This document shows, piece by piece, positions 4,748 through 18,445 of a stretch of 32,388 nt of DNA (the stretch's first letter is position 1; every line of letters begins with the position of its first letter). This DNA comes from Thiomicrorhabdus sp. (GTDB taxonomy: Bacteria; Pseudomonadota; Gammaproteobacteria; Thiomicrospirales; Thiomicrospiraceae), in assembly GCA_015487495.1 (NCBI GenBank), contig WFPP01000112.1:1-32388 (forward strand), written 5' to 3'. Under the pieces are notes generated by a model. The model was not told the origin of the DNA and searched no databases. It saw only the letters and a list, made by a program, of their open reading frames with translations. The position numbers were made by a program, and so were the translations under genes.

Positions 4748-5518
4748 TTAGTCGATCCCCTGACCAATTCGGTTAAAGTGAATGCCATTATCCCAATTCA
4801 TCCAAATACCAAACGCACGGCCTTTTAAGTTTTTCTCTGGAACAAAGCCCCAAAAACGGCTATCGTTACTGTGGTCTCGGTTATCACCCATCACAAAATA
4901 CTGACCTTCTGGTACTTTAATGGTCTGCATATCTAAACTTCTTTTATTCATGTCCAATAAAATTTCATGGCTACGTTCTTTTGAAAGCCACTCTTTAAGT
5001 ATGCTTGCACCATTCATAACCGATCCAGAATCTGTGCCACGGTATTTACCAATCATCTCAGTTTTAACCGGATTGCCATTAAGAAACAAGGTACGGTTAA
5101 GATAGGTAATTTCATCGCCCGGAAGACCAATCACGCGTTTAATGTAATCAACTTTTGGGTCTTCCGGATATTTAAACACCACAACATCCCCACGTTCAGG
5201 CTTACCTATCGGAATCACGGTGGTTTGAATCACTGGTAATTTAATACCGTAGGCAAACTTGTTTACCACAATAAAGTCCCCAATTTGCAAGGTTGGGTAC
5301 ATGGAGCCTGATGGAATTTTAAACGGTTCGACAATAAAAGAACGCAAAACCAGTACAATTAAAAAAATGGGAAACAAGGAGCGGGCGTATTCAACAATAA
5401 CAGGCTCTTTAACGGCTACCACAGCTTTTAGACGTTTTGGTCGCCAAATAATTCGATCAATGTAAGCGATCACCCCTGTGATGGCCGTGGCAATCACTAA
5501 AATTAATTCAAAACTCAT
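4748..5518 (-). CDS. lepB: Signal peptidase I
   Basis: Inner-membrane serine protease that removes signal peptides from exported proteins on the periplasmic side. The 256-residue protein has two N-terminal membrane segments (about 3-20 and 46-62), then the catalytic PSGSMYPTL with Ser72, the general-base Lys127 in DYIKRVIGLPGDE, and the box GDNRDHSNDSRFWGFV. The order Ser/Lys dyad and boxes B-E is intact. The lepB ATG overlaps the lepA stop (TAATG) by one base, and rnc starts immediately after lepB, so lepA-lepB-rnc form a tightly coupled translation unit. Confidence 0.97.
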   Translation of the reverse strand: MSFELILVIATAITGVIAYIDRIIWRPKRLKAVVAVKEPVIVEYARSLFPIFLIVLVLRSFIVEPFKIPSGSMYPTLQIGDFIVVNKFAYGIKLPVIQTTVIPIGKPERGDVVVFKYPEDPKVDYIKRVIGLPGDEITYLNRTLFLNGNPVKTEMIGKYRGTDSGSVMNGASILKEWLSKERSHEILLDMNKRSLDMQTIKVPEGQYFVMGDNRDHSNDSRFWGFVPEKNLKGRAFGIWMNWDNGIHFNRIGQGID

Positions 5519-13566: not shown

Positions 13567-13587
13567 AGAATAATGATTAGAGGCCAA

Positions 13588-13619
13588 AAAAAATGCCCCA
13601 ATCATTTGGGGCATTTTTT
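13588..13619. terminator. Bidirectional intrinsic terminator
   Basis: A perfect 14-bp stem (AAAAAATGCCCCAA at 13588-13601, TTGGGGCATTTTTT at 13606-13619) with a TCAT loop. T tracts follow on both strands, so it can end ygfZ on + and the cytochrome gene on -, which converge here. Confidence 0.92.
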
Positions 13620-13669: not shown

Positions 13670-14353
13670 TTATTTTAATGTAACCACATACTCAGAAACC
13701 GCTTTAATTTCAGCATCGCTTAAATCTTTCGCAACGGGCGTCATCATACCAGACATAGGGCCAATTTGCTCACCCGCCTTATAACGATTTAATTTATCCA
13801 TTAAGTCTGCAACCGTTTGAGCGTTTAAGTTTGGACCCACACCACCTTCTGCTTTACTTCCGTGGCATCCAGCACAAGATGCAAAAACCTTGGCACCATC
13901 TACAGCCGCAGTTGTTACCTGCTCAGGAGCAGGTGATTCAACAACCTCTGTTTTTTCAACAACTGCCTCTTTCGCATTAGAAACCGCATTGGCTACTTTA
14001 TCTGTTGTTTCTGTCGCAACATCCGCTACTTTCGTAACAGTATCATTAACAGCCTCTTTGGTTTCTGTCGCAATATCCGCTACTTTGGTAGCCGTTTCAT
14101 CAATGGCCTCTTTTGCGTCCGTTGCAACCTCAGTTGCTTTCGTTGCGGTCTCTTCTACTGCATTTTTTGCACTGTCAACAGCGGATACCGCCGCCGAAGT
14201 TGTTTGCTCTAACAGGCTTTCTGAGGCTGTCTCACTCTGCTCTGTTGCACTATCATTGCCTTCTTTTGAACAACCCGTGCTCAATAACACCGCTGAACTT
14301 AATAGGGCACACGATAAAATATAAGGTGCTTTATTGTTTAGTGAGAAAGTCAT
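13670..14353 (-). CDS. Lipoprotein c-type cytochrome with LEA-like repeat linker
   Basis: Predicted membrane-anchored monohaem cytochrome c, probably an electron carrier on the periplasmic side. From ATG 14353 (227 residues) a signal sequence ends in the lipobox LLSTGC with Cys28. Residues about 63-134 are an Ala/Thr/Lys/Glu-rich series of four imperfect 18-residue repeats such as KEAIDETATKVADIATET, reminiscent of LEA or apolipoprotein-like amphipathic helices. A short Pro-containing hinge leads to a class I cytochrome domain with CAGCH (160-164) and Met ligand candidates in GPMSGMM (about 198-204). An in-frame TTG at 14362 is rejected because AGGA abuts it but sits nine bases before the ATG. 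The redox partner is unknown; no oxidase or Sox genes are adjacent. Confidence 0.88.
   Translation of the reverse strand: MTFSLNNKAPYILSCALLSSAVLLSTGCSKEGNDSATEQSETASESLLEQTTSAAVSAVDSAKNAVEETATKATEVATDAKEAIDETATKVADIATETKEAVNDTVTKVADVATETTDKVANAVSNAKEAVVEKTEVVESPAPEQVTTAAVDGAKVFASCAGCHGSKAEGGVGPNLNAQTVADLMDKLNRYKAGEQIGPMSGMMTPVAKDLSDAEIKAVSEYVVTLK
13952..14167 (-). repeat. Four imperfect 54-bp tandem repeats in the cytochrome gene
   Basis: The coding sequence for the linker repeats in 54-bp steps (18 codons). The second and third units are most alike (KEAIDETATKVADIATET and KEAVNDTVTKVADVATET). The reading frame is kept, as expected for unit duplication, and such an array could vary in copy number between strains. 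Confidence 0.7.
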
Positions 14354-14443: not shown

Positions 14444-17400
14444 TTAAACCAAGCTCATCATCCTTTTTTGAATACGCTTAATCGAAACGGGTTTCAATGT
14501 TTTCATCGGTTGTGCAAACAAGGACAAGCGTAATTCTTCAATCCACCATCTCAGCTCAATCAAATTCGGCAGCGTTTGATAAGCGGGCTCTTGAGACAAG
14601 CGTTGATACTCATCCAAAATGGGTTGAATTTGACGCACCAACAACAAGTCTTTATTGGGGTCTTGATCAAGTTTTTCCAGACGAACATCAATTCCTTTTA
14701 AATAACGTACTATTTGTTTAAACCAGACATCGGGGGTCTGGCGTACAAAATCTTTTGAAATCAACCCTTCTAACTGTATTTGAATATCTGCAACAGAGCC
14801 AAGCCAACGAGGATTCACCCGTCCACGTATACGTTTTGCAATACGTTGGTGTTGCGTCAAAATGGCCTGAACGTCCTTAGCAACCTCATGCGCCTGATGA
14901 ATCCAGTGTTGGCGAACCTGCTCCAATGTCTCTTCAAATACAGATTGCTTTCGGATGATTTCTGGCTCTGGCACTAATTGATTTAAAGCACGATCAATCA
15001 CCTGTTTGGTTAAATCTTGACACGTTCCATAAGGGGCATAACACAAACACGCTTTTTGCAAAGGTAGCTTTTTTTGTAAATACTTTAATTTATCTGCTAG
15101 CACTAATTTAATTAAGGCCAATACGGCTTGACCATGCGCTTGTTTCGCACGCTCTTGTTCACCAATCAGGGTTAAAACAATGCCTTTTGACGTTTGTTGC
15201 AGAGCGGGGTACGCCACCATATTGGATGCTTTGTTTTTAATCTCTCTAACCTCAGGCAAATCTCCAAAATCCCAACTAAAAACCGCCTTTTCATTCGAAG
15301 CCTTTTTGGATTGATGTTGTTGAATTTTGGCATCAACCAAATGTTGATAACGTATTTTTAGTGAATCTAAATCGGTCCCTTCTGCAATCGTAATCCCTTT
15401 TTCATCTTGTAATACAAAAAAGGGATTTAAATAATCTGGTAAACAAACGTCTGAAAAATCCTGAAGAGAAACAGGCTGGTTACCACGTCGATTAAGTGCC
15501 CACACCAGTTGATTAAGATACGATTTTTTTTCCCCCCCCTGTGTTTTTTCAGGAGACATTTCATCCAACACCAACGCCACATATTGAGGCACAGGAACAA
15601 ATTGCTTTCTTAACGACTTAGGAAGCGATTTAATATAAAAAGCGGTTTTTTCCTTTAAAAGTCCGGGAGTTAACCACTCAAAGTCCTGTGGTTTGACTAA
15701 GTTTAAGCTCGACAAAGGAATATGGTAGATTAAGCCATCTCGTGCTTTTCCTGGCTCAAAAGCATAATCCACTTCCAGATGTAGATGATTACTAATTGAA
15801 ACCTGATCAGGAAATTCATGCTCCAAACTGGAGCAGGCCGGTTGTTTCATTAAATCCGATTCAGTTAAAAAAAGAGCCTCTATTTGTTCCGGGTGTGTGT
15901 TTTGAGTTTGCTTTACCCATTTTTCAAATGCCGGTTTGTTATAAAGATGCCCTGGCAAACGCTCATCATAAAACTGATAAATCACTTCATCGTCCACTAA
16001 AAAATCAGGACGTCGTAGCTTATATTCTAATTTCTCAATTTTTTGTACCAATGCACGGTTATGAACAAAAAAAGCCACATTGGAAAACAGCTCTCCCTCC
16101 ACCAAACCATGACGAATAAATAATTTACGCGCCTCTTTTGGATTAATTGGCCCATAATTACAATGACGACGATTTACAATCGGCAAACCATACAATGTAA
16201 TGGACTCATAAGCTCCGACCTGCCCCCGTTTTTTCTGCCAATGCGGATCACTGTAGCTGTGTTTAATTAAATGTTTCGCCAAATGTTCTACCCAACGAAT
16301 ATCAATCACAGCATTATTACGTGCATAAAGTTTCGTGGTTTCCACCAATTCACCCGCTAACATCCATTTGGGTTTGCGTTTAAACAGGCTGGAACTTGGA
16401 TGAATAAATAATTTTGTATTACGCGCACCTAAAAACGACTTTTCATCCTCACGCATGGCAATATTACCCAACAACCCTGATAGCAAGGACTTATGAACCG
16501 CCACGCTGTGCAAGTCACTTAAACGCTCCAGTACCTCTTCCGTGGCCATACCCTGCTTATTCATTATGCGTTTTTCTTCAAACAAATGCAGTTTTCCCAC
16601 CCGCATTCCAATACGCTTTAAACTCTGCTCAAGTTGCATCGTTAATTCGTGCCACTCTCGCATTCTCATATAGGATAAAAAATGGGTTTTACACAGTTTT
16701 CTCAATTTATTTTGCGTTAAGTGACGACGCTGATGCTCATAAAAATGCCATAAATTTAGAAAGAATAAAAAATCCGAGCGCTCATCTTCAAAAACGCTAT
16801 GTGCCATCCGTGCCGCTTGCATGGTCGATTCATTAATTTCTCTGGGATCTTGAATACTTAACGCCGCTGCAATCACAATCACCTCAGCCAACACCCCATT
16901 TTTTTCTGCCTCAATCACCATTTTAGCCACACTTGGGTCAATAGGTAGTTTGGCTATTTGACGGCCTTCAGGCGTTAAACGCCGCTTCTCATCCAAAGCG
17001 CCCAGTTCATGTAACTGTCGAAACCCATCGTTAATGGACTTCTCTGCGGGCATTTCAATAAAGGGAAAACGCTGAACATCCCCCAAATTTAATTGCGCCA
17101 TCGTTAAAATAACCGATGAAAGTGCAGTTCGATGAATCTCTGGATCGGTAAACTCAGGCCGTGAACGAAAATCCTCTTCATCATACAAACGAATACAAAT
17201 CCCCTCACTCACACGTCCACATCGCCCTTTCCGCTGATTGGCAGACGCCTGGGAAATTTTTTCAATCGGTAAACGCTGTACTTTATTACGCACACTGTAA
17301 CGGCTGATTCGAACCAACCCAGGATCAACAACGTATTTAATACCAGGAACAGTTAAAGAGGTTTCTGCCACATTGGTGCTTAAAATAATACGACGTTTTT

Positions 17401-18445
17401 GTGATGGCTGAAAAATTTTCTGCTGTTCAGCCATCGAAAGGCGTGCATACAACGGTACAATATCAGTGTGTTTTAAATGACACTTGCGTAACACCTCTGC
17501 GGTTTCTTTAATATCACGCTCACCAACCTGAAAAACCAATACATCACCAAACGGGTCTTTAACGGACAGCTCTTCAATGGCATCCACAATCCCCATCGTC
17601 ACATCTTGCTCGATCTCATTCCCAGAACCGTCTTCATAGCGCACTAAAGGCCGATAACGCACTTCAACGGGATACGTTCGCCCCGACACCTCCACAACAG
17701 GAGGCCGTTTGCCATTTATCGTAAAATGTTCAGCAAAGCGTTGAGTATCAATGGTGGCCGAAGTAATAATAACCTTTAAATCAGGGCGTTTAGGCAGCAG
17801 CTGTTTTAAAATACCCAGTAAAAAATCAATATTAATACTGCGCTCGTGTGCTTCATCAATAATAATCGTGTCATACTGGGTTAAAAAGCGGTCATTTTGA
17901 ATCTCTGCCAATAAAATCCCATCGGTCATCACCTTAATTAAACTGTGCGCCTTAACCAAATCTAAAAACCGAACCTGATACCCAACCACCTCACCTAATG
18001 GAGAGCCAAGTTCCTCTGCAATACGTTCCGACACACTTTTTGCCGCCAACCGTCTTGGTTGGGTACAACCAATTTTCCCCCGAACGCCCTGCCCCGCTTC
18101 CAAACAAATTTTAGGAATTTGCGTGGTTTTACCTGACCCCGTTTCACCTGCAATCACCACCACTTGATTTTCACGAATCAACTGCACCAGCTCTTCTTTT
18201 TTGGCCGCAACAGGTAATGCTGCATCATATTGGATAAGTGGCACACGTGCCTTTCGGGTATTGACCTCATCCAAAGATGCTTGCAAAGCATTCACCCATT
18301 GTTGCCACGCAGTATCTGACTCAGATAACTGGCTAAAATCCAGTTTTTGCAACCCGCGTTTTAATCGAAAACGATCCTTTACCAAACATTGATTCAGCAA
18401 AGGGTAAAGCACTCTTTTTTGAGAAGGGAATAAAACAGAATTCAT
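14444..18445 (-). CDS. hrpA: ATP-dependent RNA helicase HrpA
   Basis: Large DEAH-box helicase; in E. coli HrpA acts on mRNA and in rescuing stalled or collided ribosomes. The 1333-residue protein matches the family length. Walker A is GETGSGKTT (100-108), motif II DEAH (197-200), motif III SAT and motif VI QRKGRCGRV follow, then HA2 and OB-fold regions and the long C-terminal extension typical of bacterial HrpA. The N-terminus (LVKDRFRLKRGL) resembles that of E. coli HrpA, supporting ATG 18445, although no binding site is visible. A C8 run (15532-15539) encodes QGGEKK on the minus strand, G8 followed by A8. It is a monocistronic gene divergent from the persulfide dioxygenase gene. Confidence 0.95.
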   Translation of the reverse strand: MNSVLFPSQKRVLYPLLNQCLVKDRFRLKRGLQKLDFSQLSESDTAWQQWVNALQASLDEVNTRKARVPLIQYDAALPVAAKKEELVQLIRENQVVVIAGETGSGKTTQIPKICLEAGQGVRGKIGCTQPRRLAAKSVSERIAEELGSPLGEVVGYQVRFLDLVKAHSLIKVMTDGILLAEIQNDRFLTQYDTIIIDEAHERSINIDFLLGILKQLLPKRPDLKVIITSATIDTQRFAEHFTINGKRPPVVEVSGRTYPVEVRYRPLVRYEDGSGNEIEQDVTMGIVDAIEELSVKDPFGDVLVFQVGERDIKETAEVLRKCHLKHTDIVPLYARLSMAEQQKIFQPSQKRRIILSTNVAETSLTVPGIKYVVDPGLVRISRYSVRNKVQRLPIEKISQASANQRKGRCGRVSEGICIRLYDEEDFRSRPEFTDPEIHRTALSSVILTMAQLNLGDVQRFPFIEMPAEKSINDGFRQLHELGALDEKRRLTPEGRQIAKLPIDPSVAKMVIEAEKNGVLAEVIVIAAALSIQDPREINESTMQAARMAHSVFEDERSDFLFFLNLWHFYEHQRRHLTQNKLRKLCKTHFLSYMRMREWHELTMQLEQSLKRIGMRVGKLHLFEEKRIMNKQGMATEEVLERLSDLHSVAVHKSLLSGLLGNIAMREDEKSFLGARNTKLFIHPSSSLFKRKPKWMLAGELVETTKLYARNNAVIDIRWVEHLAKHLIKHSYSDPHWQKKRGQVGAYESITLYGLPIVNRRHCNYGPINPKEARKLFIRHGLVEGELFSNVAFFVHNRALVQKIEKLEYKLRRPDFLVDDEVIYQFYDERLPGHLYNKPAFEKWVKQTQNTHPEQIEALFLTESDLMKQPACSSLEHEFPDQVSISNHLHLEVDYAFEPGKARDGLIYHIPLSSLNLVKPQDFEWLTPGLLKEKTAFYIKSLPKSLRKQFVPVPQYVALVLDEMSPEKTQGGEKKSYLNQLVWALNRRGNQPVSLQDFSDVCLPDYLNPFFVLQDEKGITIAEGTDLDSLKIRYQHLVDAKIQQHQSKKASNEKAVFSWDFGDLPEVREIKNKASNMVAYPALQQTSKGIVLTLIGEQERAKQAHGQAVLALIKLVLADKLKYLQKKLPLQKACLCYAPYGTCQDLTKQVIDRALNQLVPEPEIIRKQSVFEETLEQVRQHWIHQAHEVAKDVQAILTQHQRIAKRIRGRVNPRWLGSVADIQIQLEGLISKDFVRQTPDVWFKQIVRYLKGIDVRLEKLDQDPNKDLLLVRQIQPILDEYQRLSQEPAYQTLPNLIELRWWIEELRLSLFAQPMKTLKPVSIKRIQKRMMSLV

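Follow-up and report, generated by a model that had tools for sequence, protein, structure and literature searches.

Why would a predicted monohaem cytochrome c carry a lipid-attachment site at one end and a long repetitive arm before its haem domain, and is it the repeat or the tether that matters? We considered this for a gene on the minus strand (13670–14353) of a 32,388-nucleotide stretch of Thiomicrorhabdus sp. DNA, here called the window, which corresponds to contig C112 of a 2.04-Mb genome (132 contigs, 93.8% complete). The sequence, the list of open reading frames and the orthologues agree on a complete gene of 227 codons followed by a stop codon at 13670–13672. We placed the start at the ATG at 14353; the list gives a TTG three codons upstream.

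Residues 1–28 (14270–14353, minus strand) form a putative signal peptide closed by the lipobox LSTGC, with Cys28 at 14270–14272 and serine at position +2. Serine at −3 of a lipobox is allowed by the PROSITE pattern, if less usual than leucine. Residues 149–227 (13673–13909, minus strand) form a c553-type haem domain, which matched Pfam family PF00034 (Cytochrom_C) with an E value of 6.5e-10 and a score of 40.6 bits, the cut-off being 21.3. By sequence, the nearest solved chains in the PDB are cytochromes c, c555, c553, c4 and c552. The only CXXCH motif is CAGCH (residues 160–164, 13862–13876), as in class I c-type cytochromes. The distal ligand is probably one of M200, M203 and M204 in the segment GPMSGMM (residues 198–204); M200 and M204 are invariant in an alignment of only four rows. 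The unusual combination on which the original prediction was built, namely a lipobox, a repeat arm and a monohaem domain, is thus present in a single frame according to the sequence and Pfam. For this predicted lipoprotein cytochrome we infer both lipid attachment at Cys28 and haem attachment. The arm itself (residues 29–148, 13910–14269, minus strand) was delimited by its hydrophobic periodicity and by low-confidence AlphaFold2 helices. Its length had been put at about 70 residues, a figure that covers the repeats; C28 and C160 lie farther apart, at 132 residues.

The repeats fall in a register of four 18-residue units on the minus strand: residues 51–68 (14150–14203), 69–86 (14096–14149), 87–104 (14042–14095) and 105–122 (13988–14041). 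The periodicity is real, as self-similarity of the arm at lag 18 stood 9.2 s.d. above 500 composition-preserving shuffles. The first unit looks degenerate by eye, and it would be fairer to count three good units plus a poor one than four equal repeats. Tandem Repeats Finder reported a single array in the window, at 14007–14113 in the region of the third and fourth units, with 2.0 copies of 54 bp and 84% matches; from so few and imperfect copies the duplication does not appear very recent. The arm consists of Ala (19%), Thr (16%), Glu (15%), Val (13%), Ser (8%), Lys (8%) and Asp (7%) among other residues, and its hydrophobic power peaks at 98–102 degrees per residue with a z of 11.4, a value reached by none of 300 shuffles. 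A periodicity near 100 degrees is as for an amphipathic helix, in which 18 residues would complete five turns at 3.6 residues each. AlphaFold2, run on a three-row alignment, predicted helices at residues 37–90 and 95–136 with low confidence (mean pLDDT 47.8); if placed in line, these (about 96 residues at 1.5 Å) would reach roughly 145 Å. The arm had also been described as LEA-like. It shares Ala/Lys/Glu/Thr-rich helical repeats with LEA proteins, whose repeat unit, however, has 11 residues and not 18, and LEA families were absent from the 14 Pfam rows at E ≤ 1, so that the likeness is one of composition only.

A terminator-like hairpin noticed by eye, TGCCCCAA-TCAT-TTGGGGCA with flanking A and T runs (13587–13619, no strand assigned), sits between the cytochrome gene and a convergent ygfZ-like gene and lies outside the three sites obtained by scanning. 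A promoter scan gave no usable signal (2 sites against 2.0 expected). The upstream neighbour is hrpA (14444–18445, minus strand), which served as an anchor of synteny and has no place in the mechanism proposed below; its product belongs to an RNA helicase family, and we know of no redox link. No gene for an electron-transfer partner adjoins the cytochrome gene, and hrpA, its constant neighbour, gives no redox hint.

To see what is conserved, we turned to 62 genomes of the family; a search at the level of the order returned the identical 62. A haem-domain match of some kind was found in all of them. Loci were examined for 59 genomes, the window's included; the other three, G033–G035, gave only weak best matches (E 1.1e-8 to 1.9e-7) and were left out for that reason. 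A search for the architecture of a lipobox, an arm no shorter than 40 residues and a CXXCH motif, which had been proposed as a check, found it in 55 of the 59, again counting the window's genome, with a lipobox pattern that admits STGC. These 55 proteins include one with its haem domain split over two frames (G030), one truncated by a contig end (G025), one with a masked stretch (G057) and one distant protein of uncertain orthology (G032). The split in G030 (L079) points to a disrupted gene or to a fault of the assembly; its relatives have intact copies. Only the soluble form was seen in the loci examined of G053, and the tethered form was absent from the two loci examined in each of G014 and G020. 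In G045 the cysteine is absent, but the N-terminus is still hydrophobic and the arm still long.

A relative of HrpA (over 35% identity) accompanies the cytochrome gene in 44 of the 55 orthologous loci. In all 42 cases measured it is upstream and on the same strand, at a distance of up to about 510 bases in 33 and of 1.6–3.8 kb in 9. It was not found in 11 of the 55 loci within the stretch examined, some of which are cut by contig ends. This synteny indicates that the orthologues mostly represent one locus in which the arm has been rebuilt. Other proteins were also observed around it. G002 and G015 (L052, L065) have a second lipoprotein-like cytochrome in tandem, with only 33 residues from Cys to CXXCH. 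Several relatives encode exported W/K/T-rich helical-repeat proteins nearby, those of cluster 13 at 6 loci and those of cluster 17 at 5; the one in G014 (L064, about 4770–5357) gave a weak YtxH match, below the cut-off. Outside the family, a Sulfurovum MAG (L037:4739-5212) has a lipoprotein-like frame with about 66 residues from Cys to CXXCH, counted by eye, which indicates that the layout is not confined to the family of Thiomicrorhabdus. A literature search, for which most subscription journals were beyond reach, found no report on Thiomicrorhabdus together with cytochrome c and lipoprotein.

Comparison of the 55 proteins revealed that the arm differs greatly from genome to genome. The distance from Cys to CXXCH ranges from 57 to 136 residues with a median of 90. 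Self-similarity at lag 18 is strong in the window's clade of six (G000, G018, G019, G023, G024, G025; z 4.5–9.2) and reaches 4.5 in only 2 of the 49 other arms, G036 (4.9) and G043 (4.7), both from one other genus. A strong amphipathic-helix period, defined as a hydrophobic power z of at least 4 near 100 degrees (a cut chosen after the values had been seen), was present in 14 of the 55 arms; among the remaining 41, six had a weaker z of 2.0–3.7, the highest in L060. Prolines divide the arms in a similar way: 11 of the 14 helical arms have no more than two, and 38 of the other 41 at least five. An essential role for the repeats, as had been supposed, finds no support in these counts. In several other arms, those of G036, G050, G051 and G028 among them, lag 11 was the strongest of the three lags tried, which makes the 18-residue unit one of several solutions. 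When the helix label was placed on a HrpA tree (41 rows, with 11 of the 14 helical arms), at least four changes were required, meaning that helical arms were gained or lost several times. They are also longer (median 114, n = 14, against 81, n = 41; Mann-Whitney p 1.3e-5), but a tree-aware paired test with 4 pairs gave a median p of 0.5, and a link between helix and length is therefore not established.

The original prediction held that orthologues with unrelated, non-repetitive linkers would speak against it. Such linkers are what most relatives have, and this counts against the repeats and not against the tether, which is kept. The best reading of these comparisons is that the repeats are one clade's version of a conserved tether in front of a conserved haem domain. 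In a tree of the haem domain, built from 75 columns and with 31 of its 58 forks open, two changes between tethered and soluble forms were needed, one of them forced by starred branches.

Within the clade the number of repeats does vary, as had been anticipated: some close relatives differ by steps of exactly 18 or 11 residues. Gaps of 18 residues separate G025 from G023 and from G018. Gaps of 11 were seen for the window protein against G024, G019 against G024, G019 against G025, and G025 against G018, where the gap falls behind the repeats. At a lowered score threshold, Tandem Repeats Finder detected the 54-bp period in G019 (2.5 copies) and in G025 (3.8 copies), and no such array in the G018, G023 and G024 loci. 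As raw counts from 15 pairwise alignments of six close relatives, in which the pairs are non-independent, 7 of 13 gaps of at least 10 residues measure 11, 18 or 36, and the other six measure 10, 13, 14, 16, 17 and 23. Gaps of 11 or 18 are of a size that keeps a predicted helix in phase; the other sizes in 6 of the 13 would break it. This bears on one alternative, that the repeats are incidental low-complexity sequence in a drifting linker which grows by slippage or unequal crossing-over and whose function is length alone. Turnover of the arm between genera while the haem domain stays, its variable length and the six gaps out of phase are what this alternative would lead one to expect. Against it, all six members of the clade retain the 100-degree period (z 4.0–11.4) although their residues have diverged, and seven of the large gaps have the sizes given above. 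We regard it as possible, if on balance unlikely.

Arms without a haem domain were found next to some of the cytochrome genes. In G036 (L082:4571-4801) the cytochrome is directly preceded by a lipoprotein of 77 residues that comprises a signal, a lipobox and a helical arm; it shares 25 of 76 residues with the N-terminal part of the cytochrome (E 1e-11 in a single comparison). Similar proteins follow the cytochrome in G041 and G046 (L087:5730-5963 and L092:5765-5998). These forms of 77–78 residues thus occur in three genomes of one genus, which is not that of the window. A scan of 61 loci returned the same three and an Ala/Pro-rich candidate in G057 (L103:5506-5709). With the G041 protein as query against 60 of the 62 genomes, the short form was again found in G036, G041 and G046; weak matches in six more genomes (E 2e-5 to 8e-4) all lay in frames of 188–193 residues. 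The similarity suggests that the arm may be a module that was copied locally.

The membrane to which the protein is anchored may be read from the residue at +2, which is Ser in 38, Gly in 16, Thr in 1 and Asp in none of the 55 proteins. As a background, Asp occupies this position in 5 of 29 other lipoprotein-like frames of the loci, four of them from one family. By the Lol rule of E. coli, a residue other than Asp at +2 directs a lipoprotein to the outer membrane; the rule fails in some bacteria. LolA was found in the window's genome. LolB was detected with PF03550 in none of 32 genomes of the genus; this model matched E. coli alone among 14 controls and may be too narrow. Judged by the +2 residue, anchoring in the outer membrane is somewhat probable. 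The proposed reach across the periplasm requires such an anchor, to which the +2 residue is the one pointer. In G045 the hydrophobic N-terminus would mean the inner membrane; perhaps the lipid anchor was here replaced by an N-terminal helix, by analogy with a tetrahaem cytochrome of a purple bacterium with the species name 'globiformis', as described in an excerpt of PMC10968294. Taken as a single case, G045 would favour selection on tethering.

These observations could be combined in a further account, in which an outer-membrane cytochrome has to reach partners in the inner membrane and its arm is rebuilt either as a helix, with steps of 11 or 18 that keep phase, or as a shorter Pro-rich coil, the length being set by the reach of each material. 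We consider this account doubtful. If it were true, the locus would offer a natural length series for a redox arm that spans the periplasm, and the tandem arm-only lipoproteins would represent the arm module copied with or without its haem domain.

A different role for the helix was also considered, namely that of a coiled-coil stalk like the alanine zippers of Lpp/OprI, in which bundled copies keep their haem domains at a constant spacing from the membrane. The hydrophobic power near 100 degrees (z 11.4) would fit, as would the helical arm-only lipoproteins adjoining the cytochrome in three genomes, those of G036 and G041 being weakly similar to NCBIfam Ala_zip_lipo (E 5.2e-6 and 3.9e-6, both below the cut-off). 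The whole window protein resembles the same family weakly (E 0.0022, below the cut-off), but its arm without the signal peptide gave no match at E ≤ 0.1, which indicates that the resemblance leans on the signal region. Moreover, 41 of the 55 counterparts lack the strong period, so that bundling cannot be the shared function, and the stalk appears quite improbable. Membership of the Lpp/OprI alanine-zipper lipoproteins (NF040598) was rejected: the two share a lipobox followed by an alanine-rich amphipathic helix, but the whole protein scored 18.5 bits against a curated cut-off of 43 bits, and Lpp has no redox domain. An arm lying flat along the surface of the lipid like an apolipoprotein, with the haem domain held near the membrane, is very unlikely. 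Its amphipathic five-turn unit and a weak match to the Apolipoprotein family (PF01442, E 0.004), which scored 17.3 bits where the cut-off is 90, would speak for it; against it, any amphipathic repeat would probably give such a match, a face of mostly Ala, Val and Thr should bind lipid weakly, and most counterparts lack the strong helical period.

We return to a conserved tether carrying a c553-type carrier, and to its possible partners. The window's genome encodes a soluble paralogue of 101 amino acids, 50% identical in the haem domain. A candidate for a co-occurring oxidase is a run of a COX1-family gene and frames with one and two CXXCH motifs, which is the layout of ccoN-ccoO-ccoP; the names ccoO and ccoP follow from this layout. 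There are two additional COX1-family matches, and cbb3 need not be the only partner for that reason. Cytochrome b of bc1 and a SoxB match above the cut-off are present as well. Thioalkalimicrobium cyclicum, of the same NCBI family, has bc1 and apparently a single oxidase of the cbb3 type, according to an excerpt of PMC4891895.

With these components the protein would be a periplasmic monohaem c553-type carrier, fixed to the membrane by its N-terminal lipid. A long arm with little call for any particular sequence would keep the haem domain close to its partners and let it swing between a donor, the bc1 complex and/or the Sox system, and the cbb3 oxidase. It may be the tethered member of a pair with the cell's soluble c553, comparable to cytochrome cy and c2 in Rhodobacter. 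The arm of the window's clade would be a long amphipathic helix of 18-residue units (11 + 7, five turns), and a change in the number of units would alter its length. This lipid-anchored carrier on a variable arm, swinging between bc1/Sox and cbb3 and paired with a soluble c553, is the reading we find fairly probable from the sequences.

The closest parallel considered is cytochrome cy (CycY) of Rhodobacter capsulatus. According to an excerpt of PMC7876108, it is likewise a membrane-fixed monohaem cytochrome c on a long linker, which coexists with soluble c2 and serves bc1 and cbb3. It consists of a 30-residue helix, a 69-residue linker and a 100-residue haem domain; rapid transfer to the reaction centre requires 69 residues, and about 45 are enough for the oxidase. 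Its anchor is a transmembrane helix and not a lipobox, and that excerpt does not mention a repeat arm. Filing the window protein as a cytochrome cy was rejected on account of the lipobox that replaces the transmembrane anchor, a hydrophobic N-terminus without Cys being seen only in G045; the two may nevertheless work alike. An excerpt of a review (PMC8361435) states that diffusion times become shorter for a carrier confined to the surface of the membrane and that the linker of cy is too long to tell two-dimensional from restricted three-dimensional diffusion.

Two other small redox proteins were compared as well. Heliobacteria have no outer membrane and their cytochrome c553 has a photosynthetic role; Laz of Neisseria is a copper cupredoxin and not a haem protein, and its low-complexity H.8 arm has another sequence. 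What Laz shares, according to an excerpt of PMC6277709, is that it is a small lipid-modified redox protein of electron transport which is not surface-exposed. A lipid on the heliobacterial c553 is not mentioned in the excerpt of PMC7143216.

Tethered cytochromes, and the effect of linker length in cytochrome cy, are already known. In the present set a single haem domain, encoded mostly at the same locus, is carried by arms of 57 to 136 residues that are helix-like or coil-like. Such a set of arms could show what a redox tether must supply: length alone, stiffness, or a given membrane of origin.
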